Of a stretch of DNA of 64,000 bases, positions 28,461 through 60,665 are shown piece after piece. The notes under the pieces were generated by a model, which had not been told where the DNA came from, made no database searches, and saw only the letters and a program-made list of their open reading frames with translations. Source of the stretch: Elusimicrobiota bacterium (GTDB lineage Bacteria > Elusimicrobiota > Elusimicrobia > UBA1565 > UBA9628); NCBI GenBank assembly GCA_023249675.1, contig JAHFCE010000010.1, positions 1 through 64,000 on the forward strand, read 5' to 3'. The position numbers and the translations under genes were made by a program. The stretch's first letter is position 1; each line of letters opens with the position of its first letter.

Positions 28461-29365
28461 CAGGCCCCCAGGCGCTTGAGCGCCCATAAGCCGGCGGTTG
28501 CCGCGTTCTTCCAGTCCCAAGGGCATTCGGCGAGGGCGCGCCGAGCGTAGGCCCCGCTTGTCTCAAGGTCGCCCTGCGCGATCAGTAGGCGCGCGGCGGA
28601 GCGGCACATGACGCCGAGGCGGCGGCGCATGAGCCGCCGCAGGCGCGCGTCGGGGTTGGGGAATTTTTTGAAGTGGTCGCGCAGGAGGTGTTCGAGGTTC
28701 GTGTGGTGATAGACGATCTTATTGGACGCTCCGTGCTCGACGAGTTGGTACTCCCCCAATATTTCTGGCACAAAGCGCATCCGGCAGACCTGGGCAAGGC
28801 GCATCCAAAGATCGTAGTCCTCGACCGTGTTGAATCCCGGGTCCTCCCGGAAAAGTCCAGCTTCGAAAAGATTTTCTTTTTTGACCGTCGTTGCCGAAGG
28901 AGACAGCGCGTTGCCCTCGAACAGGAGGCGTTCGTACATGTTCTCGACCCAGGGCCCATTGCGGGACACGCGCATCAGTTCGCCATTCTTGACGATATTT
29001 TCGTCGTGGCAGATGAGGTCGGCTTCGGGATGCGCGTCGAACTCGGCGAGGATCCGTGCGAGCTTCTCCGGGAACCACAGATCATCGTGGTCGAGAAAGG
29101 CGATCAAGCCCGCCTCGGCCGCGCGGATGCCCGTATTGCGCGCGCCGGCGATCTTCTTGTTCTCCTGCTTGATGCAGCGACCGCGAAGATCGTTATCTTT
29201 TAAAAATCGCTCGACGATTTCCTTCGTCGCGTCGATCGATCCGTCATCCACGACGACAAGCTCGAAGTCGCGGAACGTCTGCGCGGCGACGGTCGCGAGC
29301 GTCTTCTCAATGAAGCCTGCGGCGTTCCACGCGGGCACGATGATCGAGACGCGCGGCGCGGACAC
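28460..29365 (-). CDS. Glycosyltransferase family 2
   Basis: VSAPRVSIIVPAWNAAGFIEKTL, LVVVDDGSIDATKEI; GTG start at 29365 overlaps upstream TAG (TAGTG). Confidence 0.88.
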   Translation of the reverse strand: MSAPRVSIIVPAWNAAGFIEKTLATVAAQTFRDFELVVVDDGSIDATKEIVERFLKDNDLRGRCIKQENKKIAGARNTGIRAAEAGLIAFLDHDDLWFPEKLARILAEFDAHPEADLICHDENIVKNGELMRVSRNGPWVENMYERLLFEGNALSPSATTVKKENLFEAGLFREDPGFNTVEDYDLWMRLAQVCRMRFVPEILGEYQLVEHGASNKIVYHHTNLEHLLRDHFKKFPNPDARLRRLMRRRLGVMCRSAARLLIAQGDLETSGAYARRALAECPWDWKNAATAGLWALKRLGA

Positions 29366-30288
29366 TAGGCCCTCGCTGTCCTTGCGGCCTTCATCGCCGC
29401 GAGGCCCTCGCGCAGACCGGTCGGGCGCACGCCGAGTTCCCGCTCCATGCGCGCGGTGACGAAAGTCGTGTTCTTCGGACGCGCGGCGAGGCCCGGGAAG
29501 GACTTGCTCGTGACCGGTCTGATCAGGGACTTGTCGAGTCCGAACACCTCGGCGACAGCGAGCGCGAACTCGAAGCGGTCGACCTCGTCGCGGCCCGCGA
29601 GATGAAAGATTCCCGAAGGACGCTTGGCGATCACGGCCCACAGGGCGCTGCCGCAGGAGATGTTGTAGAGGGGGTTTTCGCGCACGTCGGTCACCATCGA
29701 GACGGTTTCGCCCTGCATCAGCTTCTCGTAGATCCAGGTCGCGGGGTTGGGTCGGGTGACCGCGTGGTTCCAGCCGTACATCAGGATCGGTCGCACGATC
29801 GTCCAATGCTTGAGCGTCTCCTGGACGAGGCGCTCGCACTCGACCTTCAGGCGGCCGTACTTGTTGATCGGGTTGACCGTGTCCGTCTCGCGGTAGGGAG
29901 CCCGGGTTCCATCGAAGACAGCGTTTGTCGAAACGTAGATCAGGTGTGAATCGGTGCGGCGGCAGGCCGAGGTGACGTTCAGCGTGCCCACGATGTTCGA
30001 CTCGAGGCTCTCGGCGTAGTGGTTTTCGACATAGTCCACGCTGGCGATGCCGGCCGCGTGTACGACCGCGTCGAAGCGCCGTCGCGCGAACAAGCGGTCC
30101 ACCGCGCGCTTGTCGCGGATGTCGAGAACGAGGTGCCGCGCCTTTGAGTCCACGATCACGTAGTCGCGCTGGTGCAGACTGACGATGTCCCAGTCCGGGG
30201 GCAGCGTCTCCTCCATGCTTTTGCCGAGCAGGCCGGTGCCGCCGGTGACCAGGACGGTTTTCGAGTCGCGGCTTTTGCGGCGGGGCAT
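29365..30288 (-). CDS. dTDP-4-dehydrorhamnose reductase-like NAD(P)-dependent reductase (RmlD family)
   Basis: VLVTGGTGLLGKSMEETL, YVSTNAVFDGTRAPYRETDTVNPINKYGRLKVECERLV. Confidence 0.85.
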   Translation of the reverse strand: MPRRKSRDSKTVLVTGGTGLLGKSMEETLPPDWDIVSLHQRDYVIVDSKARHLVLDIRDKRAVDRLFARRRFDAVVHAAGIASVDYVENHYAESLESNIVGTLNVTSACRRTDSHLIYVSTNAVFDGTRAPYRETDTVNPINKYGRLKVECERLVQETLKHWTIVRPILMYGWNHAVTRPNPATWIYEKLMQGETVSMVTDVRENPLYNISCGSALWAVIAKRPSGIFHLAGRDEVDRFEFALAVAEVFGLDKSLIRPVTSKSFPGLAARPKNTTFVTARMERELGVRPTGLREGLAAMKAARTARA

Positions 30289-30898: not shown

Positions 30899-31906
30899 CT
30901 AAAGGCCTCGGGCGTGAAGGTCGTGGACCTGGATCAGGCCGACCGCGCGGCCGCGGCGATCGACGACGGGCAGGACGTTGAACGGGTTCCTCCGGTTTTC
31001 CATGAGGGCGACGGCCTGAGCCGTGGAAGTGTCGGGGCGGACCGTGGTCGGGTGCGGGTTCATGACATCCTGGATCGAGAGTGTGAATGGATTTTTTCCG
31101 CCTTCGAGGGCGCGTCGGAGGTCGTAGTCGGTGACAAGACCCACGAAGCGTCCGCGGGCGTTCACGATCGACGCGGCTCCGGCCTGCTTGCGGGTGATCT
31201 CGATGAGCAGGCGCCGTACGCCTGCGTCCAGGCGGACCACCGGATTGTCCTTGCCGGCGCGCATGACGTCCGCGGCGGTCAGGCTCAAGCGGCGGCCCAG
31301 CCGCCCTCCGGGATGATTACGCGCGAAGTCGCCGGCGTCGAAGTTTCGGCGCTTCATCAGCGCGACGGCGAGCGCGTCACCGATGACGAGCGCGACGGTC
31401 GTGCTGCTGGTCGGCGCGAGATTGAGCGGACAGGCCTCCTCGACGATCGGGGTATGAAGGATCACGTCCGCTCGGCGAGCTAAAGTGGACTTCGGATTGG
31501 CGGTCAGCGCGATGAGCTTGGCTCCGCGCGCGCGCAGATGCGGGAGCAGTGCGTTCAACTCGTCCGACTCGCCGGACTTGCCGATCGCGAGCACGAGATC
31601 CTGGCGCTGGACCAGACCCATGCCGCCGTGCATCGCCTCGACGGGGTCTAAGTAGACGGCCGGCGTGCCCGTCGATGAGAGCGTGGCTGTGATCTTTTGC
31701 GCGATCGCGCCCGACTTTCCGACTCCGGTCAGAATCACCTTGCCGCGGCAGGAGGCCAGCATCTCGACGGCCCGTGCATAGGAGGAGTCCACCGCGCTGC
31801 GGACGCGGCGCAGGGCGGTTCTCTCGCAGTCGATCACGCGGCGGATCTCCGCGAGGATGTCGAGCCGGGAGGCCTTTTGTCGGGAGCGTTTCATTGCAGT
31901 CGCCAT
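30899..31906 (-). CDS. kdsD: Arabinose-5-phosphate isomerase (KdsD/KpsF/GutQ) with SIS and tandem CBS domains
   Basis: VILTGVGKSGAIAQKITATLSSTGTPAVYLDPVEAMHGGMGLV; CBS repeats; start refined to 31906, as the longer ORF is a shadow of the upstream gene. Confidence 0.92.
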   Translation of the reverse strand: MATAMKRSRQKASRLDILAEIRRVIDCERTALRRVRSAVDSSYARAVEMLASCRGKVILTGVGKSGAIAQKITATLSSTGTPAVYLDPVEAMHGGMGLVQRQDLVLAIGKSGESDELNALLPHLRARGAKLIALTANPKSTLARRADVILHTPIVEEACPLNLAPTSSTTVALVIGDALAVALMKRRNFDAGDFARNHPGGRLGRRLSLTAADVMRAGKDNPVVRLDAGVRRLLIEITRKQAGAASIVNARGRFVGLVTDYDLRRALEGGKNPFTLSIQDVMNPHPTTVRPDTSTAQAVALMENRRNPFNVLPVVDRRGRAVGLIQVHDLHARGL

Positions 31907-31910
31907 TCTA

Positions 31911-33776
31911 TCATTCCGACCGCACGTTGAGCGCGGCGTCGAGGGCGGCGGCGGCGCGTTCCGCGCCGCCGCCGTCACCCGAGAAGAAGAGCTGCTCGAG
32001 CAGACGGTTTCGGGATGGTTCATCGGGCAGGCCGCGTCCGGCGTGGAAATGTTCGAGCGCCTCGCGCAGGCCGGAGACCGAGGTGAAGCGCGTAATGTCG
32101 GCTGCCTCGGAGAGGGCGGAAGCGTCGTAGGCGAGCGGGCGCCACTGCCATGCGGGGATTCCGCGGAGAACGGCCTCCTCGCCGATCGTCGAATAACTGA
32201 AGAGCACGGCGTCGGCCCAGGCGAAGTCCTCCTTGAGGGGGCTTGATGAGAGCTCAAGACCGGCGCGCGCGCGGGCGTAGGCCGCGTCGGTTCGAGGTTG
32301 GACGAATGGGTGCTCGCGCAGACGCAGGGACACGCCCGGCAGGCCTGCGGCCGCGGCGCGCGCGGCTTCGAGCATCTGCGCTTCCATCCCCAGATCGAGC
32401 GCCGGCGCGAGAAGGAGGCGCACGCCTTTTCCAGACCAGGATTTGACCGGGGCGGGGGGGCGGATATGGTCGAAGCGCGGGGAGCCGGTCGCCACGACGC
32501 GCTGCGGAGGATAGCCATAGGAGAGGAAGTGCTCTCGCGGCTTGAGCCCCATCGCGAGGACGAGGTCCGGAGTCGGGACCGGGAGGCCGTCCGGCTCTCC
32601 GCGGAATTCGCGTGCGGGCTCGAGGAAATAGAACGTCTTCTCAGCGCAGAAGGTCGCGTGCTGGAGGGTCGCGGTCAGGGCACTCGGCGCGCCCGCTCGC
32701 GTTCCGGCGTAGCACGCTCGCGCCTGGGGGTAATGCTCGAGGAAATGGACGACGGCGCGCGGACGTAGGCGCGCGGCCGCGCGCTGGGCTGCGCGCTCGA
32801 CCAGCGTCGCGCGAGGGATCGAGGCATCGGCGAAGCCGCGCAGGAGGCATTCTTCAAAAAGGGGAAAAAGATCGAGGTCTCCGCTCTGGAAGACGGCGCG
32901 AAAGTCGGGGCGGCCGCGGCGGCGCAGGTACGCGCCAAGAGGTCGGAAGTCGGCGGCCGCCCTCAGCGCGTCGAGCGGCTCGAGGAAAGCCTGCATCAGG
33001 ACGATCCCTCTTCGAGCGGCGTCGCGCGCGGATTCGAAGCGTCCGCGCCGCGGGCGGGCGGGGTCGCCCCCCGGGTCGAGCCAGCAGAGCCAGTTCACGC
33101 TGCGTCCCCTGGCGCTGAGCCGCTCGGGAAAGGCCTTGAAGTAGCGGTCGACGATCTTGCGGCCGTCAAACCAGCACGACCAGTCCCAATAGCCGAAGAG
33201 CAGCACATCGGCGCGCCCCGCGCCGACGTCGGCCGCGCGTGCGGCGAGGATATCGAGCAGCGCGTCGGCGGCGAAGGCGAGGCGCGAGCCGGCCGCGCGC
33301 AGGAGGAGGAGAACGCGCGGGTGGGATGCGGGCGCGCGGCGCTCCGCGACGGCGAAGCGCGCGCGCAGGACCGCGACGATTTCCCGCGGCGCGCCCCATG
33401 TCTCAAGCTCGGACGCGCCGAGACTTTCGGCGGCCTCCAGGACCGCGTGGACCGCGATCAGACGCGAGAACGCGGGGTCCATTTCGCAGGCCTTGAAGGA
33501 GCCGGGATGATACCACCAAGACGATGCGGCGCTGCCGCCGCATTCCGCGCGCAGCGTGGGGCCATTGGGCTCGGCCGAGGCGCCGATGGAGGCGCTGACG
33601 CGCAGGTAGGTCTCCAGGGCTGCGGCCCGGGCCGCAGCCGAGCAGGCGCGCGCGCGGAGGAAGGGGCCGCGCGCGGCGTGCGCGAGAGTCTCTTCCGCAA
33701 TCGGCGGCAGGAAGCTGAGGAGCGGCCCCTCGGGCGGCGCCGGGGGAGGGACCCAGCAGACGGTCAGACGCGTCAT
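31911..33776 (-). CDS. Surface carbohydrate biosynthesis protein, putative GT-B-like transferase (possibly TIGR04326-like)
   Basis: 621 aa; TATLQHATFCAEKTFYF, VVATGSPRFDHIRPP, RLREHPFVQPR, FAWADAVLFSYSTIGEEAVLRGIPAWQW (capsule/CDP-glycerol transferase-like motifs). Confidence 0.6.
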   Translation of the reverse strand: MTRLTVCWVPPPAPPEGPLLSFLPPIAEETLAHAARGPFLRARACSAAARAAALETYLRVSASIGASAEPNGPTLRAECGGSAASSWWYHPGSFKACEMDPAFSRLIAVHAVLEAAESLGASELETWGAPREIVAVLRARFAVAERRAPASHPRVLLLLRAAGSRLAFAADALLDILAARAADVGAGRADVLLFGYWDWSCWFDGRKIVDRYFKAFPERLSARGRSVNWLCWLDPGGDPARPRRGRFESARDAARRGIVLMQAFLEPLDALRAAADFRPLGAYLRRRGRPDFRAVFQSGDLDLFPLFEECLLRGFADASIPRATLVERAAQRAAARLRPRAVVHFLEHYPQARACYAGTRAGAPSALTATLQHATFCAEKTFYFLEPAREFRGEPDGLPVPTPDLVLAMGLKPREHFLSYGYPPQRVVATGSPRFDHIRPPAPVKSWSGKGVRLLLAPALDLGMEAQMLEAARAAAAGLPGVSLRLREHPFVQPRTDAAYARARAGLELSSSPLKEDFAWADAVLFSYSTIGEEAVLRGIPAWQWRPLAYDASALSEAADITRFTSVSGLREALEHFHAGRGLPDEPSRNRLLEQLFFSGDGGGAERAAAALDAALNVRSE

Positions 33777-34714
33777 CGGCGCAGGAACTCGGAGGCGGCG
33801 CGAGCGCAGTCGAGCCCGGCGATCGCGGCGCGGCCCATCGCGAGGATGGCCTCCTCGGTCGAGCCGCCGATGTGCGGCGTCGCGAGAATCTTCGGGTGCT
33901 CGAGCAGGCGCCGGTCCTTCGGCGGCTCTTCGGCGAACCCGTCGAGGCCCGCGCCGGCCAGGCGCCCGGCGTCGAGTGCCGCCAGCAGGGCGGTCTCATC
34001 GATGAGGCCGCCGCGCGCGGTGTTGATCAGCACGGCTGACGGTTTCATCCGCGCGAGACGCGCGGCATTTATGAGGCCGCGGGTGTCCGAGACCAGCGGG
34101 GCGTGGAGGCTGACGACGTCGGACTGGGCCAGCACATCGTCCAGGTCGAGAAGCGCGATGCCTTTTTCGGCGGCGAAGGCGCGATCGGGCGCGGGGTCGC
34201 AGGCCAGCAGGCGGACGCCGAACGGCGCGAGCAGGGTGACGAGCTCCCTGGCGACGGCGCCGAGGCCGACGAGGCCGACGGTCTTGCCGGTCAGCGTCGA
34301 GCCCTTGTGCTGGCGCCACATCCCGGCGCGTAGGTCGGCCTGGTCCTCCGGCAGGCGCCGCAGCAGCGCCAGAGTCATCATCAGCGCGAGTTCGGCGACA
34401 GAGCGGCTGTTGGAGCCCGGCGTCCAAGCGAGCTTCACTCCGTGCTTGGCCATCGCGGCGAGGTCGAAGGAGTCGAGGCCGACGCCAAACTTGCTGATGA
34501 CCTTGAGTCCAGGCAGGCGTGCGAGCAGGGCGTCGTCGATGACCTCGAGCGCCAGCACGGCCTTGTCGCATCCATCGAGAAATTCGATGAGGGCGGTATC
34601 CCGCAGCGACGCGCCCGCGTCATTGAAGCGCGCGCCGGGATGGCGGGCCAGAAGTTCCGCGCGCAGAACCGCGTGCTGCGAGAACGAGCGCGATGCGACT
34701 GCGACGAGGCTCAC
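33773..34714 (-). CDS. D-isomer 2-hydroxyacid dehydrogenase (phosphoglycerate dehydrogenase-like)
   Basis: GKTVGLVGLGAVARELVTLLAPFGVRLLACDP, INTARGGLIDETALLAAL, LATPHIGGSTEEA. Confidence 0.92.
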   Translation of the reverse strand: MSLVAVASRSFSQHAVLRAELLARHPGARFNDAGASLRDTALIEFLDGCDKAVLALEVIDDALLARLPGLKVISKFGVGLDSFDLAAMAKHGVKLAWTPGSNSRSVAELALMMTLALLRRLPEDQADLRAGMWRQHKGSTLTGKTVGLVGLGAVARELVTLLAPFGVRLLACDPAPDRAFAAEKGIALLDLDDVLAQSDVVSLHAPLVSDTRGLINAARLARMKPSAVLINTARGGLIDETALLAALDAGRLAGAGLDGFAEEPPKDRRLLEHPKILATPHIGGSTEEAILAMGRAAIAGLDCARAASEFLRR

Positions 34715-35802
34715 GGAAGTTCCGCCGTGCGGCCTTTGGCGAGGTATTCAGCGCAGACGGCGCGGAACTTCTCATCGGCCGGCGCTGAAACCTTGCGGAT
34801 CGTCCCGGCGGCGTTGGGCATGATCAGTCCGAGACTCTGCGCGGAGTTTTTCTTGTCCTTTGCCAGCGCGCCAAGAAAGTCATCGAGCGGGACCGGCGTC
34901 GTCTCGAAGCCCCGCCAGTTGGCGGCGAGGGTCGGACGCATGCGGCGGTAGTGCTCCGCGGAGCCGAGGCCTAGCCGCGCGGCGGCGAGATTGGCGAAGT
35001 CCATGCCGATGGTGATCGCGATGCCGTGGGGGATCGCGTAATTCGTCGCCGCCTCGAGAGAGTGGCCAAACGAATGTCCATAGTTCATCACGAGGCGCGG
35101 CCCCGCGTCAAACTCGTCGGCCTCGACGATCGGCTTCTTGATCTCGAGGCAGCGGCGCAGGTAGCGCGACATGACGGCTCGGTCTGTGAACAGGCGCGGG
35201 TAGTCCGTGGCGATCGCATCGAAAGAGGCCGGGCTCTCGATTGCGTGGACCTTCAGCATCTCGCCGACCCCGGAGCGCACGTCGCGCTCGTTCAATGTGT
35301 CGAGGAAACACGTGCTCAAAACGATCCTCTTCGGCGGCGTGAAGGTGCCGAGCACGTTCTTGGCGCCGCCGCCGTTGATCGAACTTTTCGAGCCGACGCA
35401 GGAGTCGGCCATGGCGAGAAGCGTCGTTGGAACGAAGGACCAATCGACGCCGCGGAGCATCGTCGCGGCGAGGAAGCAGGCGATGTCCTGCGTGACGCCT
35501 CCGCCGATGGCGACGAGCGCCTGGCCGCGGCGCAGGCCCTTCGCGACGAGGTGGCGCACATAGGCCGGCATCGCCTCGATGGACTTGGCGTCCTCGGCCG
35601 CGTCGATCAGCAAGATGGAGCGCGACAGGAGCGCGGGTCTAAGCCCGCGCTCATAGAGGCCGGCGACGCGGCGGTCGATCAGGAAGTGCGCGCCGGCGGA
35701 GGCCGGCGCGACGAGCTCGGCGAAGGGATCGTCGCGGAACTCGACCGCGTACGGGCCCTTGTGCGAGGCGATGATCAGGTCAGACGCGAGTAAATCCGCC
35801 AT
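34711..35802 (-). CDS. 3-dehydroquinate synthase (AroB)-related sugar phosphate cyclase/lyase-like enzyme
   Basis: LVAIGGGVTQDIACFLAATMLRGVDWSFVPTTLLAMADSCVGSKSSINGGGAKNVLGTFTPPKRI. Confidence 0.88.
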   Translation of the reverse strand: MADLLASDLIIASHKGPYAVEFRDDPFAELVAPASAGAHFLIDRRVAGLYERGLRPALLSRSILLIDAAEDAKSIEAMPAYVRHLVAKGLRRGQALVAIGGGVTQDIACFLAATMLRGVDWSFVPTTLLAMADSCVGSKSSINGGGAKNVLGTFTPPKRIVLSTCFLDTLNERDVRSGVGEMLKVHAIESPASFDAIATDYPRLFTDRAVMSRYLRRCLEIKKPIVEADEFDAGPRLVMNYGHSFGHSLEAATNYAIPHGIAITIGMDFANLAAARLGLGSAEHYRRMRPTLAANWRGFETTPVPLDDFLGALAKDKKNSAQSLGLIMPNAAGTIRKVSAPADEKFRAVCAEYLAKGRTAELP

Positions 35803-36499
35803 CGATGAGGAAGGTCTGTCCGCTCGCGTAGGTGTTGTCGGGGCTGCAGAGCCAGTACGCCAGCGCGGCGATCTCGGCGGGCCGCGCCAAGCGCCCGATC
35901 GGGATGCGCGCGACGAGCTTCTGGACGCCTGCGGCGCCGAGGATTCTTCGCGTCATGTCGGTGTCGACGAAGCCGGGCGCCAGAGAATTGACGAGCACGC
36001 CGTCGCGCGCGGCCTCGGCGGCGAGCGACGCCGTCAGGCCGTCGAGGCCGAACTTGCTCGCCGAGTAGGCGCCGCGTCCTTCGCGCGACACGACGCCGAA
36101 GACCGAGGTCACGTTGACAACACGGCCCCAGCGCCGTTTTGCCATGCCGGGCAGGAGCGCTCGGCACAGCAGGAACGGGGCGCGCAGGTTGACGCGCTGG
36201 ATGCGGTCGTAGTCGCCGGCGTCGATGTCGGCGAACGGCGAGATCTTGTTGACTCCCGCGTTGTTGACGAGAATTCCGAAACCTTGGCGCCCGGCCCATG
36301 CGGCGAACGCCTCGGCCGCGGCGTCGTCGCCGAAGTCTGCCGCGGCGTACGCGCAGCCTATCGGGGCCTTGCTTCCTGGGCGCGTGCCGGTGACCGTGAC
36401 TTTCGCTCCGGCGTCGCGCAGGCGCTGTGCGATCGCTCGGCCGATGCCGCGCGTACCGCCCGTGACCAGGGCCTTGCGGCCGGAGAGGGGCCTCTTCAT
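35780..36499 (-). CDS. Short-chain dehydrogenase/reductase (FabG-like)
   Basis: KALVTGGTRGIGRAIAQRL, NNAGVN, YSASKFGLDGLT; ATG 36499 with ATGA overlap. Confidence 0.9.
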   Translation of the reverse strand: MKRPLSGRKALVTGGTRGIGRAIAQRLRDAGAKVTVTGTRPGSKAPIGCAYAAADFGDDAAAEAFAAWAGRQGFGILVNNAGVNKISPFADIDAGDYDRIQRVNLRAPFLLCRALLPGMAKRRWGRVVNVTSVFGVVSREGRGAYSASKFGLDGLTASLAAEAARDGVLVNSLAPGFVDTDMTRRILGAAGVQKLVARIPIGRLARPAEIAALAYWLCSPDNTYASGQTFLIDGGFTRV

Positions 36500-37545
36500 C
36501 GCGTCCTCTTCGGAATACGGTCGGACAGCCGGTAGCGGCGCTTCCACGCCGGGTCCGCGCAGTAGATGCGGTAGATCAGTTCCATCGTCTTCAGCGCCTC
36601 CAGCGACGAGCCGTGGACGACGGGGGTTCCTTTCAGCACGCAGTCGGCGAATTCAAAGATCTCGTCGCGCCACGAGTTGTCCTCATTGTAGCGCGTCGTG
36701 ACCTCGCTGGGATCGCCGGCGTCCCCGTGCGCGGCGCGGGCGACGGTCAGCGTTTCCGCGCCGTAGGATTTCGAACCGGAGAGGATGCCGGACAAAGTCA
36801 GCGAGCCTTTCTCGAGCGCGATGTCGAGGTTAAAGCGGTGCCGCCACTGCGTGGCCGACGAGTGCAGCAGCGCGACGACGCCGGAGCGCGTCTTCATCAG
36901 CGCATAGGCGTTGTCCTCGACATCGTGCCTCCAGAACTCGTTCGACACCACGCTGTGGACCTCGGCGAAGTCTCCGGCGAACAGGCGCATCAGGTCCACC
37001 ATGTGGATGCCCTGGTCGAGCAGAATGCCGCCGCCGGCGTGGCGGCGCTGGGCGCGCCAGCTGTTCTCGAAGGCCACGATGCGGCTCTTGCCGTAGACGC
37101 CGTTGAGATTCAGCAGGCGTCCGAGGCGTCCGGAGCGCACGATCTTGAGCGCGTCGCGCACCGAGTCGTGGTAGCGGTGGTTGAAGCCGTACTTGAGCTT
37201 GAGGCGAGGGTGCTTCCTCTCAACGGCGCGGACCCGCGCGACGTCGGCGATGTCGCGTCCCGGGGGCTTTTCGCAGAACGTATGAAGTCCCTTCTCGAGG
37301 CCGCGAATCGCGGCATCGGCGGCGAGGTCGTTGGGCAGGCTGACGAACAACAGGTCGAGCGCCTCCCGGGCGATCATCCGCCTGTAGTCCGCGTAGAACC
37401 GAACGCCATCGGGGAATGTCCCATCGCGGCCGAAGCGCGCGTCGCTGATGGCGGCGGTCGCCAGTTGCGGGTGCGCGTCGATGAACGGTCGGCGCCGCGG
37501 GCCGACCACGCCGTAGCCGGCGATTCCAACGCGCAAGCGCTTCAT
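36496..37545 (-). CDS. Gfo/Idh/MocA family oxidoreductase
   Basis: RVGIAGYGVVGPRRRPFIDAHPQL, HTFCEKPPGRDIADV. Confidence 0.88.
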   Translation of the reverse strand: MKRLRVGIAGYGVVGPRRRPFIDAHPQLATAAISDARFGRDGTFPDGVRFYADYRRMIAREALDLLFVSLPNDLAADAAIRGLEKGLHTFCEKPPGRDIADVARVRAVERKHPRLKLKYGFNHRYHDSVRDALKIVRSGRLGRLLNLNGVYGKSRIVAFENSWRAQRRHAGGGILLDQGIHMVDLMRLFAGDFAEVHSVVSNEFWRHDVEDNAYALMKTRSGVVALLHSSATQWRHRFNLDIALEKGSLTLSGILSGSKSYGAETLTVARAAHGDAGDPSEVTTRYNEDNSWRDEIFEFADCVLKGTPVVHGSSLEALKTMELIYRIYCADPAWKRRYRLSDRIPKRTR

Positions 37546-38330
37546 ATCGCCGCCGCCGCGGCGTAGAGCGGTACCAGGCGGTCCGCTGCCATCGCGGCTT
37601 GGACGCGGGCCAAGTCCTCGGGCGTGTCCACGGACAGGGTGCGCGTTTTGGTCAGGGCCATTTTGACGGCGTCTCCGTGCTCGAGGAGGCGCAGCATGTC
37701 GATCGCTTCGGCGGTCTCGAGCGGTCCCGGCGGCAGCGCGTTGAAGCGCAGCAGGGCCTCGCGGCGGAACGGCACGATCGCGACGTGGCGGCGGCGCGGC
37801 GCGGCGCAGGCGCCCTTTTGACGGGTCGGGATGGGCTCACGCGAGAAGAAGAGCGCGCGGTCGTTGAGGCCCGTTACGACCTTGACCGTGTTGGGGTCGT
37901 CAAACTCGGCATCGGTCGGAATATCGGCGATCACGCTGGCGACCGAAAGCGACGGATCCTCGAGCAGGAGCCGGACGGCGTCATCGATCATTTGGGGGAC
38001 GACCATCGGCTCGTCGCCCTGCATCAGCGTCACGATATCGATGCGGCGGCCGGTTTCGGCCTCGATCTTGAGCATGGCCTCGGCCACGCGGTCGGTGCAG
38101 CGGTCGTGCGCGGGCTTGGTCATGACGGCTTTGGCGCCGATCGAGTGGGCGTAGTCCATGATTTCGCGGTCGCAGGTGGCGATCCAGGTTTCCGCGACGG
38201 TCTTCGCCATGGCGGTCCGGAAATAACAATGGCCGATCATGGGGATGCCGCAGATGAGCGCCATCGGCTTGCCCGGAAAGCGCGAGGAGGCCATGCGCGC
38301 GGGCACCACGGCGACGACGCGGGGTGTCAT
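37542..38330 (-). CDS. CMP-Kdo synthetase-like cytidylyltransferase (KdsB family)
   Basis: RVVAVVPARMASSRFPGKPMALICGIPMIGHCY; LMQGDEPMV; start refined to ATG 38330. Confidence 0.88.
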   Translation of the reverse strand: MTPRVVAVVPARMASSRFPGKPMALICGIPMIGHCYFRTAMAKTVAETWIATCDREIMDYAHSIGAKAVMTKPAHDRCTDRVAEAMLKIEAETGRRIDIVTLMQGDEPMVVPQMIDDAVRLLLEDPSLSVASVIADIPTDAEFDDPNTVKVVTGLNDRALFFSREPIPTRQKGACAAPRRRHVAIVPFRREALLRFNALPPGPLETAEAIDMLRLLEHGDAVKMALTKTRTLSVDTPEDLARVQAAMAADRLVPLYAAAAAI

Positions 38331-38374
38331 GGGGTCGATAGTATCAATTCGCGCTCCGGCCGCGGGATGCGGGC

Positions 38375-39538
38375 TCATTGCGCCGAGCCTCCATCGACGG
38401 CGATGCTGGAGCCGTTGATCTGGGATGATCCTTCCGACAGCAGGAATTCAACGATGGGGAGGATGTCCGAGGTCTCGACCAGGCGTCCGGTCGGCATGCG
38501 TCCGGCGAGGGCTTTGCGCGTTTTCTCGGGCATGCCTTCGTTCATGCCGACGGCAACCGCAGTGGGAACGACGACGTTGATGGTCGCGCCCTGTCCGGCG
38601 AGGTCGGCGACGAGCAGGCGGGCCAGGTGTTCAAGGGCGGCTTTTCCCAAAGAGTAGGCTCCGGCGTGAGTCTGTGGGTTTTTGCTTCCGGCCATCGAGC
38701 CGAACATGAGAAGACGTTTGACCGATGAGCCGGGACGGCGGGCCCACTGCGCCAGTAGGAGCGGCAGCTCCATCGAATGCCGCAGATGACGGCGCACCAG
38801 GTCGAGGTCATCGCTGACGAAGCCGCGCGACATCGGCGGCGAGCTCATATGCAGGATGCCGTGGAAATCACCCGGCGAGAGCCGGTCGAGCAGGCGTTCG
38901 AAGGCGCCGCCTTCCTCGGCATCGGCCGAGAGGTATTCGAGCCCGGTGCGGGCGGGCTGAGCGGGCGGGCGGCGGGTGACGCAAGCGATGTCGTAGCGCG
39001 CCAATAGGGCGGAGATCAGCGCCGAGCCGATGCCACCCGTGCCGCCGGTGACGAGCAAGCGTGGACGGCGGTCGAGGGGCGAGGGGCATGCCGCGGCCCG
39101 AGCCGGGACGGCGGCGCCGGCCGGCGCGCGCGTTTCGCCGAGGATGGCGTGGAGCGCGAAGGATACCTCGGCCTCAAGGACGGTCGAAAGCTTTGCGGTG
39201 TCGGTGATGGAGATTCCAACCAAGCCCGTTTCGCGCGCCGGATCGAAGTTCTTCAGCCGGCCCTTGACCCGCACGTTTGCGGGAAAGAAAAGAGGATTGG
39301 GGAATTGGATCTTCATCGACAGAATGAGGCTGCGGCGGCCCGGGATATTCATGCCTAAGACCCGGGAGACCAGACCCACCAGAAGGGCGCCATGCGCGAT
39401 CGGCCGGCCAAACTCGGTTCCTTTGGCGTACGTGGGATCGTTGTGCAGGGGGTTGAAGTCGCCGCTCAAGCGTGAAAAATCGGAGACGTCCTGCGCGGTG
39501 ATCGCAGCCGAGAATTCGCAGTTCTGCTCCATGGTCAT
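38375..39538 (-). CDS. MaoC-like hydratase - SDR fusion
   Basis: N-terminal DVSDFSRLSGDFNPLHNDPTYAKGTEFGRPIAHGALLVGLVSR (MaoC hydratase motif); C-terminal RLLVTGGTGGIGSALISAL...YSLGKAALEHLARLL (SDR). Confidence 0.87.
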   Translation of the reverse strand: MTMEQNCEFSAAITAQDVSDFSRLSGDFNPLHNDPTYAKGTEFGRPIAHGALLVGLVSRVLGMNIPGRRSLILSMKIQFPNPLFFPANVRVKGRLKNFDPARETGLVGISITDTAKLSTVLEAEVSFALHAILGETRAPAGAAVPARAAACPSPLDRRPRLLVTGGTGGIGSALISALLARYDIACVTRRPPAQPARTGLEYLSADAEEGGAFERLLDRLSPGDFHGILHMSSPPMSRGFVSDDLDLVRRHLRHSMELPLLLAQWARRPGSSVKRLLMFGSMAGSKNPQTHAGAYSLGKAALEHLARLLVADLAGQGATINVVVPTAVAVGMNEGMPEKTRKALAGRMPTGRLVETSDILPIVEFLLSEGSSQINGSSIAVDGGSAQ

Positions 39539-39780
39539 CCGTTCCGTTTTGCGAGCTTTTCGATTACGATGGTTTCCGCGGCCTCGAACGAGCTCATGTC
39601 GACGGCGTCTTCGTCTGATATGGTCACGTCGAACTCCTGCTCGATGGCTGAGATGAGCCCGAGCTGAATCAGGCTGTCCCAATGGGCGCAATTCGCCCGG
39701 GTCCGCTTGCGGACCGGCCCCGTTTCTTCAATCATAAGGTCGAGAAAGATGGCTTCGATTTTTTCAGCGGGATTGGACAT
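39535..39780 (-). CDS. Acyl carrier protein
   Basis: 81 aa, acidic, HWDSLIQLGLISAIEQEFDVTISDEDA with DSL phosphopantetheine motif. Confidence 0.88.
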   Translation of the reverse strand: MSNPAEKIEAIFLDLMIEETGPVRKRTRANCAHWDSLIQLGLISAIEQEFDVTISDEDAVDMSSFEAAETIVIEKLAKRNG

Positions 39781-41494
39781 TGGGGGCTCGTCTGCCTTCT
39801 TTCGTCGCGACGACCGCGCCGGATTGTTCCGCGGCCAAACGGGCGGCGGCTGCGACGCGCGTGCGGTCGATGCGCCAGTCCTCGTTCTGGGTGAGGTTGC
39901 CGCCGAGCTCGGTCAGGAACCTGCGCGCGGGCTCGTTCTTCCCAGTGCTTTTAAACGGACCTTGAATCCAGCGCGCGGAGCTGCGGCGGAGCAGCTCTTC
40001 CAGCGCGAGTATTTCAATACAGCGTCCAAAGGCGCGGCAGCTGAGGACGAACTGGCGGATCCGGAGAACTTCGCCGTCGACCGTGCCGGCGACGACGCAG
40101 ACCGTGCCGAAATCGCCGAAACGGTCGGCGAGCCTGACGGCGGTGCAGAAAGCTCTCGGAGCCGACGCCCAGCCCAACCATTCATCTTGCGATAGGCGTT
40201 CGCCGGTCAGATTGAATTGGTTGGTCTTATTGACAAGCTCGAGGCAGCGCGGATCCAAGAAGGCGTTCGTGTCGATCAGAAGCTTGAGCTCGAGCCCGCG
40301 AAGATGGCCTGCTCCGTTAGCGCAGGCCTTGGAGGATTCGCGTCGCGCCGAAAGGGTATCCGAGCGGAGGCGGTCCTCATCGCCGATGCGCCATGCGCCG
40401 AAATGACCCTGCAGCGCGCCGAAGAATGCGGGCCAATCCCTGCCTTCGCGCGGAACGCCGAGGGCCGCCGCTTCGGGAAGATGAGTTCTGACTTCGGCCA
40501 GCTCCGCTTCGTTGTCGTCTACGAACACGAGGGCGTCGGTGCCGATGTTCAGCTCCCGGGCCAGCGCCCTGAGGTTGGCGGACTTGGGATCCCAATTGCA
40601 GCGATAAGCCGTGAAATCGGCCAGTTTCAGCGGCATGTCCAAGGAGTCGAAGACCGGGAGCACGTCCTCGGGATTGTTCTTGCTGCAGAAGGCCAGCAGG
40701 ACCCCCTCGCGCCGGAGCTTCGCAATAAATTTCTGGAAAACATGGAACGCGGAACCGGGGCCCTCGGAGCGGCAGAGAATCTTTTGCGGGCCGTCTTCTC
40801 CGATGACCCCGCTCCAAAGCGTCCCATCGAGATCGACAACGAGGGCTTTCTTTCGCTCGATGGATGGGTATGCCGTCGTCACGAGGCGCTCCGCGAGGAG
40901 CGCGCATTGTTCCAGGGGTAGGGGGTGTCCCGCCAACAGCAGGTCGCGATAATTGAGGCCGCAAGGAGCTTGTTCCAGGATGCGTCCTCCCGCTTGAGCG
41001 ACGGCATGCGCCGTGTCCCACAGCGCCGTGTTCGCGGCTGCGGTGGAGGCTCCCGCCGCTCCGGGCGGACACGGATCGATGATCGGCAGCCACTCGCGCG
41101 GCGGAAGGACGACGAGAGACAGTCCGGGGCGGGCTCGGACCCACGCCGCGAGCCGGGCTTTGAGCTCGCGGCCGTTTTCAATGATCTCGGCGTCGGGGAT
41201 CCCTCCAAGCGGGCCGCGGGAGCGCCACGTGAGCCCAGGATGGATGTCGTCCCAGGACAGGAGCAGCGCGGCCGGGGAGTTCTTCAGCTCGGAGGAGGTT
41301 CTCTCCAGGGCCGCGCGCAGCTGGTCGAAGCCGAAGGTTTCGACTTCTGGGGCGCCGCTGGGGAAGCGTCGGGCGCAGAAGGCCTGGAGATACGTCTTCA
41401 GATGGAGCGGCTCGAAGGAGCAGAGCAAGGCGAATGTCCGCGCGTTGTCGCGCGGCGCGGAGTGCGCAAGCTTGGCGGCTTCGCGAAGGAGCAT
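39764..41494 (-). CDS. FkbH-like HAD-IIIC family protein
   Basis: ALVVDLDGTLWSGVIGEDGPQKI, LLAFCSKNNPEDVLPVF, ALVFVDDNEAELAEVRTHLPE. Confidence 0.9.
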   Translation of the reverse strand: MLLREAAKLAHSAPRDNARTFALLCSFEPLHLKTYLQAFCARRFPSGAPEVETFGFDQLRAALERTSSELKNSPAALLLSWDDIHPGLTWRSRGPLGGIPDAEIIENGRELKARLAAWVRARPGLSLVVLPPREWLPIIDPCPPGAAGASTAAANTALWDTAHAVAQAGGRILEQAPCGLNYRDLLLAGHPLPLEQCALLAERLVTTAYPSIERKKALVVDLDGTLWSGVIGEDGPQKILCRSEGPGSAFHVFQKFIAKLRREGVLLAFCSKNNPEDVLPVFDSLDMPLKLADFTAYRCNWDPKSANLRALARELNIGTDALVFVDDNEAELAEVRTHLPEAAALGVPREGRDWPAFFGALQGHFGAWRIGDEDRLRSDTLSARRESSKACANGAGHLRGLELKLLIDTNAFLDPRCLELVNKTNQFNLTGERLSQDEWLGWASAPRAFCTAVRLADRFGDFGTVCVVAGTVDGEVLRIRQFVLSCRAFGRCIEILALEELLRRSSARWIQGPFKSTGKNEPARRFLTELGGNLTQNEDWRIDRTRVAAAARLAAEQSGAVVATKEGRRAPNVQSR

Positions 41495-42108
41495 CAGCCG
41501 CGCTTCCCGATTACGCGCGCCGGATGCCCGGCGACGATCGAATAGGCTTTCACGCGTCCGCCGACGACCGAGCCCGAGGCGACGATCGCGCCGCGCTCAA
41601 TGTGCGTACCGGGAAGCAGGATGCAATTGGCCGCGATCCAGACGTCCTCCTCCACGATGATGGAGCCGGGCTTATGGCCCTGGGATTTCCAGGGGCGCGT
41701 CGGGTCATCGTAGTTGTGGCTGCTCGCGCGCAGCACGCAGTTGTGCGCAAGACCGGAGTCGTCGCCGATTCGGATCACGCCGCGCTCCCCGGCGTCGATG
41801 GAGACGTTCGAGTTCAGTGTGACGTTGCTTCCGATCTCAACGAGACCGCCGTCGCCGGCTCCGATGAAGCAGTGTCGGAGGGCCGCGAAGTCGTCGCCGA
41901 TGCTGATGTTTTCTGGAGAGTCGAATCTCATGCCCGAATCAATTGAGCCTGAGCCCATCCGGCCGAGGCGTTTGAGGCGCAATGTGTAATAGCGGTGGCG
42001 CAGAAGTTGTCCCGTCCGCCCGGGCATGCTGGAGACAATACCGTCGAGCAGCAGCAGTGCCTCGTGGATCAGCCGGTTCGTCAAAGACGTCGAGGGGGGG
42101 CGCTCCAT
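41494..42108 (-). CDS. Left-handed beta-helix (hexapeptide) acyltransferase
   Basis: Repeated hexapeptide pattern, IVEEDVWIAANCILLPGTHIERGAIVASGSVV. Confidence 0.88.
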   Translation of the reverse strand: MERPPSTSLTNRLIHEALLLLDGIVSSMPGRTGQLLRHRYYTLRLKRLGRMGSGSIDSGMRFDSPENISIGDDFAALRHCFIGAGDGGLVEIGSNVTLNSNVSIDAGERGVIRIGDDSGLAHNCVLRASSHNYDDPTRPWKSQGHKPGSIIVEEDVWIAANCILLPGTHIERGAIVASGSVVGGRVKAYSIVAGHPARVIGKRG

Positions 42109-42109
42109 G

Positions 42110-42126
42110 TGTTCAATCGGTGAACA
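42110..42126 (-). promoter_or_regulatory. Operator site 2: TGTTCA-ATCGG-TGAACA (+ strand reading)
   Basis: Perfect 6-bp arms, 5-nt spacer; TATAAT at 42135-42140 (minus); one base upstream of ATG 42108. Confidence 0.8.
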
Positions 42127-42179
42127 ACAAGGAGATTATAGAAAAAATGGCGGATATTCGGCAGCCCAAACGCACGAGG

Positions 42180-43967
42180 TTATTGAGCCTGGAGCTGGTG
42201 GAAGCGGCGGTAGAGGCCGTCCTCGCGCGCGATGAGTTCGTCGTGCGTGCCGGACTCGACGATACGGCCGTGGTCGAGCACGATGATCCGGTCGGCGTTT
42301 CGGATCGTGCCGAGGCGATGGGCGATCACGAGCATCGCGCGATTGCGCGACAGTTCAGTCATCGCGTCCTGGATCAGCTTTTCCGTCACGGAGTCCATCG
42401 CGCTGGTGGCCTCGTCGAGGATCAGGATGGGGGAGTTCCTGAGGAACGCGCGCGCGATGGCCACGCGTTGGCGCTGGCCTCCGGACAGACGGACGCCGCG
42501 CTCGCCGAGCATCGTCTTCTCCCTGAGCGGCAGCCTGCCGACGAATTCATCGGCGCGCGCGCGTCGCAGGGCGTCGTGGAATTGCGAGTCGGCGCAGTCC
42601 GGCGCGCCGTAGCGGATGTTGTTCTCGAGCGTGTCGTCGAAGATGAAAGTATCCTGGCTGACGACGCTGACCAGGCGCGTCCAGTCCTCGCGGCGCAGTT
42701 CCGGGAGGGGAATGCCGTCGACCGTGACGCGTCCCTCCGTCGGGTCGAACAGGCGCAGGAGAAGGCGCGCGAGGGTCGTCTTGCCCGCGCCGGAGCCGCC
42801 GACGACGGCCAGCATCTCGAGGCGCCCGAGGACCAGAGAGATCCCCTGCAGGGAGTCTTCCTGGGCCTGAGGATAGCGGAAGCTCACGTCATGGAAGACG
42901 ATGCGTTCGTCAACGGAGTTTTTTCGCCGTGTTCCCCACCGCAGAGTCGTCAGCCCTTTCTCGGAGAGTATTCCGGGGAGCCTATTCATTCGCGATAAGA
43001 ACTCCGCCATATGGACGCGGCCGTCGTTGATCGCGGTGACTTTCGGAATGATGCGCGTGACAACGAACATGAACCCCAGCAGGTCTGCGCCCCGGATCGA
43101 GAGTCGGGAGACCGCCAGATAGACGATCACGCAGAGCAGTCCGTCGCCAAGCACGCCCTCGCAGAAGGCGTTGCGCGCCTTCGTGACGGCAATTGTCCTG
43201 GCGTTGCTCTCGATGGCTCGCGCCATCGCCGAGAAGCGGGCTTTCTCCTGTTCCTCGGTGCCGAAGGACTTGATGACATCGATGCCCTGGTGGACGGCGG
43301 TCAGCAGAGACTTCATCTCCGTGCGCAGCCGGCCATGCTCCAGGCCGTGGGCGTGCACTTGTTTGACGAACTGCCCGGAGACGGCGTAGCGAAGCGCGCC
43401 CAGAACGGCGACGGCCAACGTCAGACGCCACGACACATACAGCGCGACGGACGCGTAGACGAGGATGGAGAGCGAACTTGCCGCGATGATGATCGCAAAG
43501 GTGAAGGCGTTGCCGACGTAATCGACCTCACTCTCGACTACCTGAGCCAGCTCCGCGCTGGAGCCGGCCGTGAAATAGAAGAGATGAGATGAGATGATGC
43601 GCGAGAACGCCTCCTCGCGCAGGTCCGCCATCAGCGGATCGTAGATGCGTGCGGAGACCGTCGACACGCCGTGCTTCAGGATCAGCGCTCCCAGAATGAC
43701 GATAAAAATCAGCGTGATGAAGGCTCCGACCGACGGCTCCAGTCCGACAGCACCCAGCGCTGTAATTACCGGCCGGGCAGCCGGCCGTGATAAGAACGCC
43801 TCGCCGTGCTGCACGTACTCGATCAGGGGAAAGAACAGACCGATGCCCAGACCCTCGCTCAGAGATGCTCCCAGCATCAGCGCGCCCAAGCCCATGATGC
43901 GCGCGCGGTAGCGCTTCAGCGCACCGAGATACGGGGAAACGTGAGCGACGAACTGTCGCGGATTCAT
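42180..43967 (-). CDS. ABC transporter, fused permease/ATPase (MsbA-like exporter)
   Basis: VVGGSGAGKTTLARLLLRLFD Walker A, LSGGQRQRVAIARAFL signature, ILILDEATSAMD Walker B; ATGA overlap start. Confidence 0.93.
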   Translation of the reverse strand: MNPRQFVAHVSPYLGALKRYRARIMGLGALMLGASLSEGLGIGLFFPLIEYVQHGEAFLSRPAARPVITALGAVGLEPSVGAFITLIFIVILGALILKHGVSTVSARIYDPLMADLREEAFSRIISSHLFYFTAGSSAELAQVVESEVDYVGNAFTFAIIIAASSLSILVYASVALYVSWRLTLAVAVLGALRYAVSGQFVKQVHAHGLEHGRLRTEMKSLLTAVHQGIDVIKSFGTEEQEKARFSAMARAIESNARTIAVTKARNAFCEGVLGDGLLCVIVYLAVSRLSIRGADLLGFMFVVTRIIPKVTAINDGRVHMAEFLSRMNRLPGILSEKGLTTLRWGTRRKNSVDERIVFHDVSFRYPQAQEDSLQGISLVLGRLEMLAVVGGSGAGKTTLARLLLRLFDPTEGRVTVDGIPLPELRREDWTRLVSVVSQDTFIFDDTLENNIRYGAPDCADSQFHDALRRARADEFVGRLPLREKTMLGERGVRLSGGQRQRVAIARAFLRNSPILILDEATSAMDSVTEKLIQDAMTELSRNRAMLVIAHRLGTIRNADRIIVLDHGRIVESGTHDELIAREDGLYRRFHQLQAQ

Positions 43968-45700
43968 CGGGTGGAGGGCTCCTCGCGGACTTCCTTCAGC
44001 CATGCGTCAAGCCAGTCGGGGCTGGACCGTGCGAAGTTCCTCGCGAACGTTCGGTGTGCGGCGCGTCGCTCGGGCTCGTCCCACCACGCGCGAGGATCGG
44101 CGTAGATGAGGCCAACCTGCGCGGCGGCTTCCTCCGGCGAGTCAAAGAGGATCCTGACTGTCTTGAGCGCCTCGACGAATGGGCGCGCCGCGTCGCGCAA
44201 CGGCCAGGCGTCTTCCCGCCAACTCAGGACCGAAGGGATGTCTGCGGCCATCGCCTCCAACAGAGGGGTCGACGGACAATCGAAGACCGCGAGCCGGACC
44301 TCCCGCAAACGGTGGGCGAAGGGGGATTCGGGATCGTCGAAGCGCGTGTCCGGGCAGAGTTCCTGGATGCGCTCGCGGTGCTTCCACCCCCAGTCGCGTC
44401 GGTAAAGACGCAAGCGCGTTCGGCTGCGCGCGGGTTCAGGGAGCGCGCGCAGGAGCCGGGATTGGCGGTTGAGATAATCGAAGGCCAGGGTGTTGTTGTT
44501 GGCGCGTATCAGCCGGACGTTATGAAGGTCGAGAGGGGTCGAGACGTAGAGGACCTCATCGCCGGAACGCGTCGCGCCGTTGCGCGACAGCATGGGCGGG
44601 GGCAGATCCCGGAGCTTTAAGTCGCGCTCCGTTTTTGACCAACCCCAACAGTAGTAGCGGTCGCTCACGGAGCGCTCGAAGTCTTCGGCCGGGCTGTAGT
44701 CCATCATCCCGTAGCTGCCCCCGTGTTGGCAGCCCCAGAGTTCGGCGCCCCGCTCGACGCACTCGGCCGCTGCGAATTTGAAGGAATCGGCGTAGTGGCA
44801 GTCGACGGTCGTGAAGGCGGCGCGCGGGGTCCGCCCGAGATGGGAACGCGTGAAGTTCACGGCGTCGGCGTATCCTTCAAGAAACAGGGTCGGCAGGTGG
44901 TGGGGCAGGGCGTTGATGAAGATCCGCTCGAACTCATCGCGCGCCTGGAGCCGGCGGAGGCCTTGGCGGCGTTCATCGGGGATGGGGGCGGGGGAGTCGG
45001 GCAATTCGGCCAGGTAAGGCAGGGTTTTGAAGCGGGATCCAAGGATCAGCCGCAGGCGCTCGCCGCGGCTTAAACCCAGTTCCGAGATAAGTATTTCTCC
45101 AGCACCCGCGCGCGCGCAGGCGGTCAAGGCCCAGGTCAACGCCCGTTTGGCCCGCCTTTTGAAGCCGGGGCGCGGCTGCGGCGCTGTCGGTTCGGACAGC
45201 GCGCGGACGGGCGAGTCGGGCATCTTCGCGGCGAGGATGTGAGAGAACATCTGCAGGTGGAAGAAATGTCCTGCTGTCAGCCGCATGAAATCGGCCGTGC
45301 TGCGGGGAGTTTGGTCACACGCCGGATCCAGCCGGAACGTACGCAGAGAGGGCTCCAGCTTGAGGGCGTCTTCGACATGGACGCAATGGTCGTACATCTG
45401 CTCGACATGGTAGGTCAGCCAGGGGTCGAGCAGGATCCGCCAAGCTCGGCGGCTGCGGATGATGCCGAGCGTCCCGTTCAGGTAGGGGACCAGTTGATCG
45501 AGAAGATGGCTTGAGACATCGCGGCAGTAACTGGCGGCGGCTTGGAATCGTGCGAGGTCGCTCCAGGGATCCGCCAAGAAACGGGGGCGCAGCCTCTCCC
45601 ACTCGGGACGGCGTTCGTGCAGGGCGCACCACGGGCCGATGAAAAGCAGCTCATCGTTCTTGTCCCAAAACTCCTCGAGCGGCGTGACGGCCAGAAACAT
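43964..45700 (-). CDS. LIC12162-family putative transferase (surface carbohydrate biosynthesis)
   Basis: N-terminus MFLAVTPLEEFWDKNDELLFIGPWCALHERR matches the TxLEExW...FLGxWC signature of this family. Confidence 0.82.
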   Translation of the reverse strand: MFLAVTPLEEFWDKNDELLFIGPWCALHERRPEWERLRPRFLADPWSDLARFQAAASYCRDVSSHLLDQLVPYLNGTLGIIRSRRAWRILLDPWLTYHVEQMYDHCVHVEDALKLEPSLRTFRLDPACDQTPRSTADFMRLTAGHFFHLQMFSHILAAKMPDSPVRALSEPTAPQPRPGFKRRAKRALTWALTACARAGAGEILISELGLSRGERLRLILGSRFKTLPYLAELPDSPAPIPDERRQGLRRLQARDEFERIFINALPHHLPTLFLEGYADAVNFTRSHLGRTPRAAFTTVDCHYADSFKFAAAECVERGAELWGCQHGGSYGMMDYSPAEDFERSVSDRYYCWGWSKTERDLKLRDLPPPMLSRNGATRSGDEVLYVSTPLDLHNVRLIRANNNTLAFDYLNRQSRLLRALPEPARSRTRLRLYRRDWGWKHRERIQELCPDTRFDDPESPFAHRLREVRLAVFDCPSTPLLEAMAADIPSVLSWREDAWPLRDAARPFVEALKTVRILFDSPEEAAAQVGLIYADPRAWWDEPERRAAHRTFARNFARSSPDWLDAWLKEVREEPSTR

Positions 45701-52112: not shown

Positions 52113-52114
52113 AG

Positions 52115-53524: not shown

Positions 53525-53543
53525 GCGGTGCTGGCGGTCCTGC

Positions 53544-53783
53544 TCAGAGGGCGACCCCGTATTTCGCGAGCAGTTCAAAACCTTTCTTGTAGGAGCTGAA
53601 GTTGATGATGTCGTCGGTTTCCAGTGCGATGCCGAACGCATCCTCCAGGGCCGCCACCATCGACATGTGTCCGATCGAGTCCCATGCCGGGTTCTCATTG
53701 TAGGCAAGAGTGTCATTGAGGTCGCTTGCTTTCAGCGAAAAGGTCTCGATGAAGGCTTTGTCGTATTTTTCTTTGTTGGTCAT
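53544..53783 (-). CDS. Acyl carrier protein
   Basis: 79 aa; NPAWDSIGHMSMVAALEDAFGIALETDDI with phosphopantetheine-type DSI motif; SD-like AAGGAG upstream. Confidence 0.87.
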   Translation of the reverse strand: MTNKEKYDKAFIETFSLKASDLNDTLAYNENPAWDSIGHMSMVAALEDAFGIALETDDIINFSSYKKGFELLAKYGVAL

Positions 53784-55690: not shown

Positions 55691-55696
55691 TATGGC

Positions 55697-60630: not shown

Positions 60631-60665
60631 GGTCTCTCTCAGCGCGGCAGATATCCCTCGATCAC

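Follow-up and report, generated by a model that had tools for sequence, protein, structure and literature searches.

The stretch of DNA analysed here, referred to as the window, comprises 64,000 nucleotides (positions 1 to 64,000 of contig JAHFCE010000010.1, our contig C35) of a metagenome-assembled genome of an Elusimicrobiota bacterium (GCA_023249675.1; 2.6 Mb, 98.6% complete). It contains a minus-strand run of overlapping or abutting genes, from 42108 to 31911, which is followed by a KdsD gene and which includes AroB', a relative of 3-dehydroquinate synthase (DHQS, AroB) surrounded by genes of the kind used for 3-deoxy-D-manno-octulosonic acid (Kdo). The features are given below in the order of the run, with the two conserved flanks at the end; cut-offs are those of the respective models, and G004, G007, G030 and G031 are genomes carrying related loci.

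41494..42108, minus: left-handed beta-helix (LbH, hexapeptide) acyltransferase, PF00132 Hexapep; it opens the run, and its 63% identical homologue in G007 adjoins FkbH
39764..41494, minus: FkbH-like protein of the haloacid dehalogenase (HAD) type IIIC, TIGR01686 218 bits (cut-off 146.65), DLDGT motif; 60% homologue in G007
39535..39780, minus: acyl carrier protein (ACP) with DSL serine; scores to ACP families are weak only; 68% homologue adjoining MaoC-SDR in G007
38375..39535, minus: fusion of a MaoC dehydratase and a short-chain dehydrogenase/reductase (SDR) of the ketoreductase kind, PF01575 and PF13561, with intact motifs GDFNPLH, TGGTGGIG and YSLGK
37542..38378, minus: KdsB', a KdsB-family CMP-ulosonate cytidylyltransferase, NF009905 285.6 bits (cut-off 255), below the kdsB equivalogs
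36496..37545, minus: Gfo/Idh/MocA oxidoreductase, distantly IolG-like, PF01408/PF22725; TIGR04380 84 bits, below the cut-off of 355
35780..36547, minus: SDR, partner of AroB', PF13561
34711..35802, minus: AroB', AroB-related putative sugar-phosphate phospholyase, TIGR04425 439.7 bits (cut-off 400)
33773..34714, minus: D-2-hydroxyacid dehydrogenase resembling phosphoglycerate dehydrogenase (PGDH-like), PF02826/PF00389, a conserved neighbour in G030, G031, G004 and G007
31911..33776, minus: 621-aa putative glycosyltransferase (GT621), without Pfam or NCBIfam match, its position conserved in G030, G004 and G007
about 30899..31870, minus: KdsD/KpsF arabinose-5-phosphate isomerase, TIGR00393 288.3 bits (cut-off 203.7)
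29365..30288, minus: RmlD-like reductase, PF04321, conserved right flank with 73-76% homologues in G007 and G030
42180..44003, minus: ABC exporter, conserved left flank with a 62% homologue in the G007 locus

Between LbH and the 621-aa protein, each of the nine gene junctions overlaps or abuts, and a gap of 40 nt precedes KdsD, downstream of which a MarR-like gene and then RmlD are found; the genes from LbH to KdsD most likely form one coupled operon. The families involved are ordinary, while their combination is extraordinary. A first-pass annotation had described the unit, between 34711 and 42108, by seven gene types; all seven were indeed recovered on the minus strand, their signature motifs intact. 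Most genes lie inside that interval, the PGDH-like and KdsD genes falling just outside it with the 621-aa gene between them; the hexapeptide acyltransferase heading the run had gone unnamed. The description of the unit as operator-headed found no support, since the region 42050-42260 contains only two weak inverted repeats, and promoter- and terminator-like matches are at chance level.

AroB' falls below the aroB equivalog (TIGR01357, 245.9 bits against a cut-off of 305), and the family to which it belongs by score, TIGR04425, is named "AroB-related putative sugar phosphate phospholyase, cyclizing", a name that is hypothetical only. In a phylogenetic tree, 12 AroB' sequences from four phyla are set apart by a branch with 100/100 support, and they share group-specific changes such as GSKSS in place of GGKT. 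The active-site residues of DHQS are retained (13 out of 13 in all 12 sequences: D146, K152, K161, N162, E194, K197, K250, R264, N268, H271, H275, H287 and K356, which we take to be the catalytic and metal residues in A. nidulans numbering); R264 and K356 are presumably those binding the substrate carboxylate in DHQS. The first-pass annotation had asked whether the AroB-like enzyme might be the sole aroB of the genome, with a housekeeping role. It is the only PF01761 (DHQ-synthase) gene; however, neither chorismate synthase (aroC) nor a class I 3-deoxy-D-arabino-heptulosonate-7-phosphate (DAHP) synthase was found in the genome, where the lone PF00793 match is KdsA (class II DAHP synthase was not searched for), so that AroB' is not regarded as housekeeping. 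The shikimate pathway seems to be absent from this organism, even though annotation would report an "aroB"; an assembly gap is possible. Several relatives carry an ordinary aroB alongside AroB'. Judged from these sequence comparisons, AroB' is an enzyme in its own right rather than a misplaced housekeeping gene. Among named organisms, the closest relative of its locus comes from an Elusimicrobiota bacterium; among the matches listed for a plasmid collection there were only AroBs at most 36% identical and no relative of MaoC-SDR, and our literature search found no paper joining an AroB-like enzyme, a cytidylyltransferase and FkbH.

Of 340 Elusimicrobiota genomes, 21 carry AroB' (E<=1e-90), and an SDR adjoins it in every one of the 25 loci compared, including those of Acidobacteria, Gemmatimonadetes and one Alphaproteobacterium. 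Three layouts can be distinguished. In type 1 (window, G030, G031, G004), KdsB'-Gfo-SDR-AroB'-PGDH is followed by the 621-aa protein, and in G030 and G004 an HpcH/HpaI aldolase precedes KdsB'. Type 2 comprises SIS or NeuB/NeuC genes, SDR-AroB'-Gfo and a NeuA-like cytidylyltransferase; these loci include a GmhA-like sedoheptulose-7-phosphate isomerase, and their NeuB is one of a group of sialic-type genes and may be independent. Type 3 (L089-L100) combines an acetolactate-synthase-like thiamine-pyrophosphate enzyme and SDR-AroB' with either an HpcH-like or a NeuB-like enzyme, possibly in a pathway to a branched-chain ulosonic sugar. Across the 25 loci, HpcH/HpaI was found in 10, a NeuB-like enzyme in another 10 and both in none (chance 0.0009, with shared ancestry ignored); type 3 taken alone gave 8 and 6, never together (chance 0.0003, on the same footing). 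Since it is established for the HpcH/HpaI and NeuB-like families that both add a three-carbon (C3) 2-keto-acid unit, AroB' seems to work in a 2-ulosonic acid context. In the alphaproteobacterial locus (L043), an aminotransferase-like gene, read by eye, lies directly after AroB' (4528-5646), which suggests a keto intermediate there.

The comparison with G007, from another family, is the most informative. A single contig of this genome carries LbH-FkbH-LbH2-ABC-KdsD-HpcH-KdsB'-Gfo-HAD-PGDH-621aa-RmlD, with further flanks in the window order, at 44-78% identity. A 214-aa HAD-IA hydrolase occupies exactly the slot of SDR and AroB', both of which are missing from the locus, and no DHQ-synthase/AroB-type protein was found in the G007 genome. 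An independent cluster in G223, HpcH-HAD-SDR-SDR-KdsB-PGDH, contains a HAD 33% identical to that of G007. As the HAD fills the same slot in a genome without AroB, SDR-AroB' appears to stand in for a phosphatase: in the simplest reading the HAD would take the phosphate off the aldol product, and SDR-AroB' would reach the same end by elimination. What is new in the analysis is this exchange. A transaldolase-like gene (L102 8073-8765) also adjoins the G223 cluster.

As to the origin of the ulosonate in the window's own genome, the first-pass annotation had rightly seen no kdsA or kdsC in the window (kdsC was not searched for with its own model); elsewhere in the genome, contig C2 carries a canonical kdsA and a second, canonical kdsB. 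KdsB' of the window is 33% identical to the latter and scores under the kdsB equivalogs (TIGR00466, 143.4 against 155.2; NF003948, 191.7 against 281); its nearest solved structure is KpsU (1gq9, 40%). In the window and in G031, where no aldolase is adjacent, KdsB' keeps the His of the RH-x-GIY motif conserved in canonical KdsB/KpsU, presumably a Kdo contact, while the aldolase-linked enzymes of G030, G004 and G007 have Gln at this position; the split thus tracks the aldolase and not AroB'. A search of the window's genome for HpcH/HpaI aldolases returned malate synthase and pyruvate kinase but no such aldolase, and that of G031 gave one weak match only. Because KdsB' keeps the His and no HpcH/HpaI aldolase was found, the ulosonate here is most likely Kdo-8-phosphate made by KdsA. 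The window kdsD, which falls short of the kdsD equivalog (NF008141, 304 bits against 505), is the only full-length copy in a search of the genome, and it therefore probably serves both pathways.

Taken together, these data lead us to propose, tentatively and with a probability of about 0.45, that this is an accessory surface-glycan locus making a CMP-activated Kdo-like ulosonic acid, in which AroB' removes phosphate by phospholyase chemistry. The fuller form of the proposal is more doubtful: AroB' would act as a phospholyase on a 3-deoxy-2-ulosonate phosphate (Kdo-8-phosphate or an aldolase-made analogue), replacing a phosphatase, and its products, once CMP-activated, would make up a new class of deoxy/keto or carbocyclic ulosonic acids found across Elusimicrobiota, Acidobacteriota, Gemmatimonadota and Alphaproteobacteria. 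The substrates, products and reaction order that follow are inferred from gene content and synteny. KdsD would provide arabinose-5-phosphate, to which a C3 unit would be added to give the 3-deoxy-2-ulosonate phosphate, by the HpcH/HpaI pyruvate aldolase in relatives and most likely by the genomic KdsA here. Where the locus lacks AroB', the HAD phosphatase would then take off the phosphate; where AroB' is present, it would carry out an NAD-dependent oxidation, beta-elimination of phosphate and re-reduction. The SDR, with the Gfo/Idh oxidoreductase and the hydroxyacid dehydrogenase, would adjust the product to a deoxy/keto (e.g., 8-deoxy) or carbocyclic ulosonate, from which KdsB' would make the CMP-sugar to be transferred by GT621. 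DHQS oxidizes C5 of its substrate and expels the phosphate at C7, which then bonds to C2 to form the ring; by the same logic, an eight-carbon acid would be oxidized at C6 and lose the phosphate at C8, and the SDR could reduce the resulting 7-keto-8-deoxy chain. Elimination without ring closure is favoured, with low certainty, because KdsB' needs the C2 hemiketal to be retained.

Several points weigh against this proposal. The HAD exchange, which bears most of the weight, comes from one genome (G007) and the looser parallel in G223. In the window, no C3-adding gene lies beside AroB'. The statistics on the exclusivity of HpcH and NeuB take no account of shared ancestry, even if both forms do occur within the single families f7 and f8. 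Closure of the DHQS type on an eight-carbon substrate would give a seven-membered ring, so AroB' would have to stop before cyclization or use another chain length. Finally, 2-epi-valiolone synthase is DHQS-like and yet uses sedoheptulose-7-phosphate (PMC5133447), and DHQS-like residues are therefore no proof of a carboxylate substrate.

This last precedent also supports an alternative that we consider unlikely, namely that two independent sugars are made: KdsD and KdsB' would be KpsF/KpsU-type capsule paralogs supplying extra CMP-Kdo, and SDR-AroB'-Gfo would form a valiolone-like cyclitol from sedoheptulose-7-phosphate, activated by another route. The relationship of KdsB' to the capsule enzyme KpsU and its conserved His would agree with this, as would the distant resemblance of Gfo to IolG, the GmhA-like isomerase of type 2 loci and a split, two-gene transketolase upstream (47552-45728). 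However, the transketolase lies outside the conserved AroB' block in relatives, the block contains no cyclitol kinase or nucleotidyltransferase, and SDR-AroB' is placed inside the KdsB-Gfo...PGDH-GT run and swapped for a phosphatase while KdsB, Gfo and PGDH remain, which fits one pathway better.

The acyl part of the operon can be interpreted by analogy. In known systems, such as the tetronate antibiotics, FkbH loads a glyceryl unit onto an ACP (Sun 2008, as cited in PMC4552970). The window has both an FkbH domain with DLDGT and an adjacent ACP with the DSL serine, in line with glyceryl loading from 1,3-bisphosphoglycerate. Dehydration by MaoC could then yield a pyruvyl group and reduction by the SDR a lactyl group, in analogy to the lactyl loading module of bryostatin, which contains a dehydratase and a ketoreductase; the hexapeptide acyltransferase would attach the resulting C3 acyl group, glyceryl or lactyl, to the sugar. 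The MaoC-SDR fusion is present in 3 of 340 Elusimicrobiota genomes (E<=1e-30). In G030 and G004, no FkbH, ACP or MaoC genes were found up to about 7-8 kb from the block, nor was MaoC-SDR found anywhere in these two genomes; since the acyl genes are missing nearby, the C3 decoration is optional to the locus. These same two genomes would suit the view, which we regard as improbable, that FkbH/ACP/MaoC-SDR/acyltransferase are an unrelated cassette sharing the operon by chance, and so would G048, where an FkbH (35%) adjoins a MaoC-SDR (30%) in a different sugar locus. A fully separate cassette was at first favoured on G030 and G004 and was dropped in view of G007, where LbH and FkbH stand beside the KdsD-KdsB-Gfo-PGDH-GT621 block, although some 14-15 kb separate ACP and MaoC-SDR from it. 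The earlier view that sugar and acyl parts belong to one glycan locus, rather than ACP/FkbH to a separate conserved operon, is thus borne out in a different family. In G007, a B12-binding radical SAM protein (L069 7538-9145), and not FkbH, precedes ACP and MaoC-SDR.

A further scheme would place AroB' first: it would make a C7 carbocycle, and SDR/Gfo would convert this to an aldehyde, which an aldolase or synthase would extend with pyruvate or phosphoenolpyruvate to a C10 ulosonic acid, containing the carbocycle, for KdsB' or NeuA. The recurrence of HpcH or NeuB-like enzymes and cytidylyltransferases with AroB' is compatible with it, and C7 plus C3 would equal the ten carbons of bradyrhizose. 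However, G007 has KdsD, aldolase and KdsB but a phosphatase in place of AroB', which makes an ordinary sugar phosphate the probable substrate of its aldolase, and the window's genome yielded no HpcH/HpaI aldolase; we hold the scheme to be quite improbable, a shade more so than the chance cassette. That AroB' is an ordinary 3-dehydroquinate synthase placed by accident in a sugar locus is hardly credible and was rejected: it is the sole PF01761 gene and keeps all catalytic residues, but aroC and class I DAHP synthase were not found, the aroB cut-off is missed, the clade is separate and relatives have an ordinary aroB besides. The rejection would fall only if chorismate came from unrecognised genes or if assembly gaps had swallowed the missing ones.

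The original outline, in which a non-standard ulosonic acid is CMP-activated and decorated with a C3 acyl group, stands. Its ulosonic part agrees with the KdsB-family enzyme and with the pyruvate aldolase found in place of KdsA in relatives; its mention of a cyclitol is less sure, as the AroB-like enzyme need not cyclize. Two further points weigh against the original interpretation: kdsA is located elsewhere in the genome and the window kdsD is the sole full copy, so that kdsD may simply feed ordinary Kdo synthesis; and the AroB'/SDR pair is optional in the locus, G007 having a phosphatase instead. If the proposed route is correct, a fold of the shikimate pathway would have been co-opted so that Kdo-like sugars can be completed with no phosphatase, a pyruvate aldolase would be able to replace KdsA, and TIGR04425 would gain its first concrete substrate hypothesis. 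New surface sugars would then be expected among uncultivated bacteria, and the results would advise caution against calling such genes aroB; they suggest an undescribed way of finishing a Kdo-like acidic sugar before CMP activation in a little-studied phylum, the Elusimicrobiota.

The 621-aa protein is possibly a glycosyltransferase distantly related to TIGR04326. The corresponding protein of the alphaproteobacterial locus matches this model (424 bits), whereas the window protein has no match to it, and the similarity between the two is not significant. Structure prediction with three sequences gave a mean pLDDT of 41.5, and a PDB sequence search returned noise only.

Other genes of the large locus include a LIC12162-family transferase at 43964-45700 (TIGR04331, 392 bits), a family of Leptospira O-antigen loci, and, at 49859-53716, upstream of the split transketolase, a LuxC-like acyl reductase, a LuxE-like acyl-protein synthetase and an AMP-ligase-like gene. 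A separate set of pseudaminic/legionaminic type lies at 55130-60672 (PseB-like, PseG-like, cytidylyltransferase, NeuB/PseI-like and GNAT).

Among known systems, the canonical Kdo pathway (KdsD-KdsA-KdsC-KdsB) shares with the proposed one the arabinose-5-phosphate isomerase, the ulosonate step, the removal of phosphate and CMP activation by a KdsB-family enzyme. It differs in that the related loci have HpcH/HpaI in the place of KdsA and a HAD phosphatase or SDR-AroB' in that of KdsC; moreover, kdsA is on contig C2 and not beside the window KdsB' and KdsD. The Kdo8N pathway of Shewanella involves KdnA, and KdsB is its activating enzyme. It offers a superfamily precedent, as KdnB, a member of the DHQ-FeADH superfamily, oxidizes Kdo (PMC5125639); unlike AroB', which is of the AroB branch and is expected to eliminate phosphate, KdnB is an iron-type alcohol dehydrogenase acting on C8 of free Kdo. 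Similarly to the tetronate antibiotic systems, the window combines FkbH with a free ACP, but the pair is accompanied by a hexapeptide acyltransferase inside a surface-glycan locus that has no polyketide synthase. The Bradyrhizobium bradyrhizose cluster (PMC4743980) is alike by description only, in directing an unusual carbocyclic O-antigen sugar. AroB' is a member of NCBIfam TIGR04425 by score and by clade, while the proposed phosphatase exchange is no part of the family description. EEVS, EVS, DOIS, DDGS and EboD are, like AroB', AroB homologs outside the shikimate pathway, and a 14-residue active-site fingerprint for the sedoheptulose-7-phosphate cyclases EEVS/EVS is mentioned in PMC4426668; these enzymes, however, belong to cyclitol secondary metabolism, whereas AroB' is tied to surface-glycan cytidylyltransferases, to HpcH/NeuB enzymes and to an SDR.

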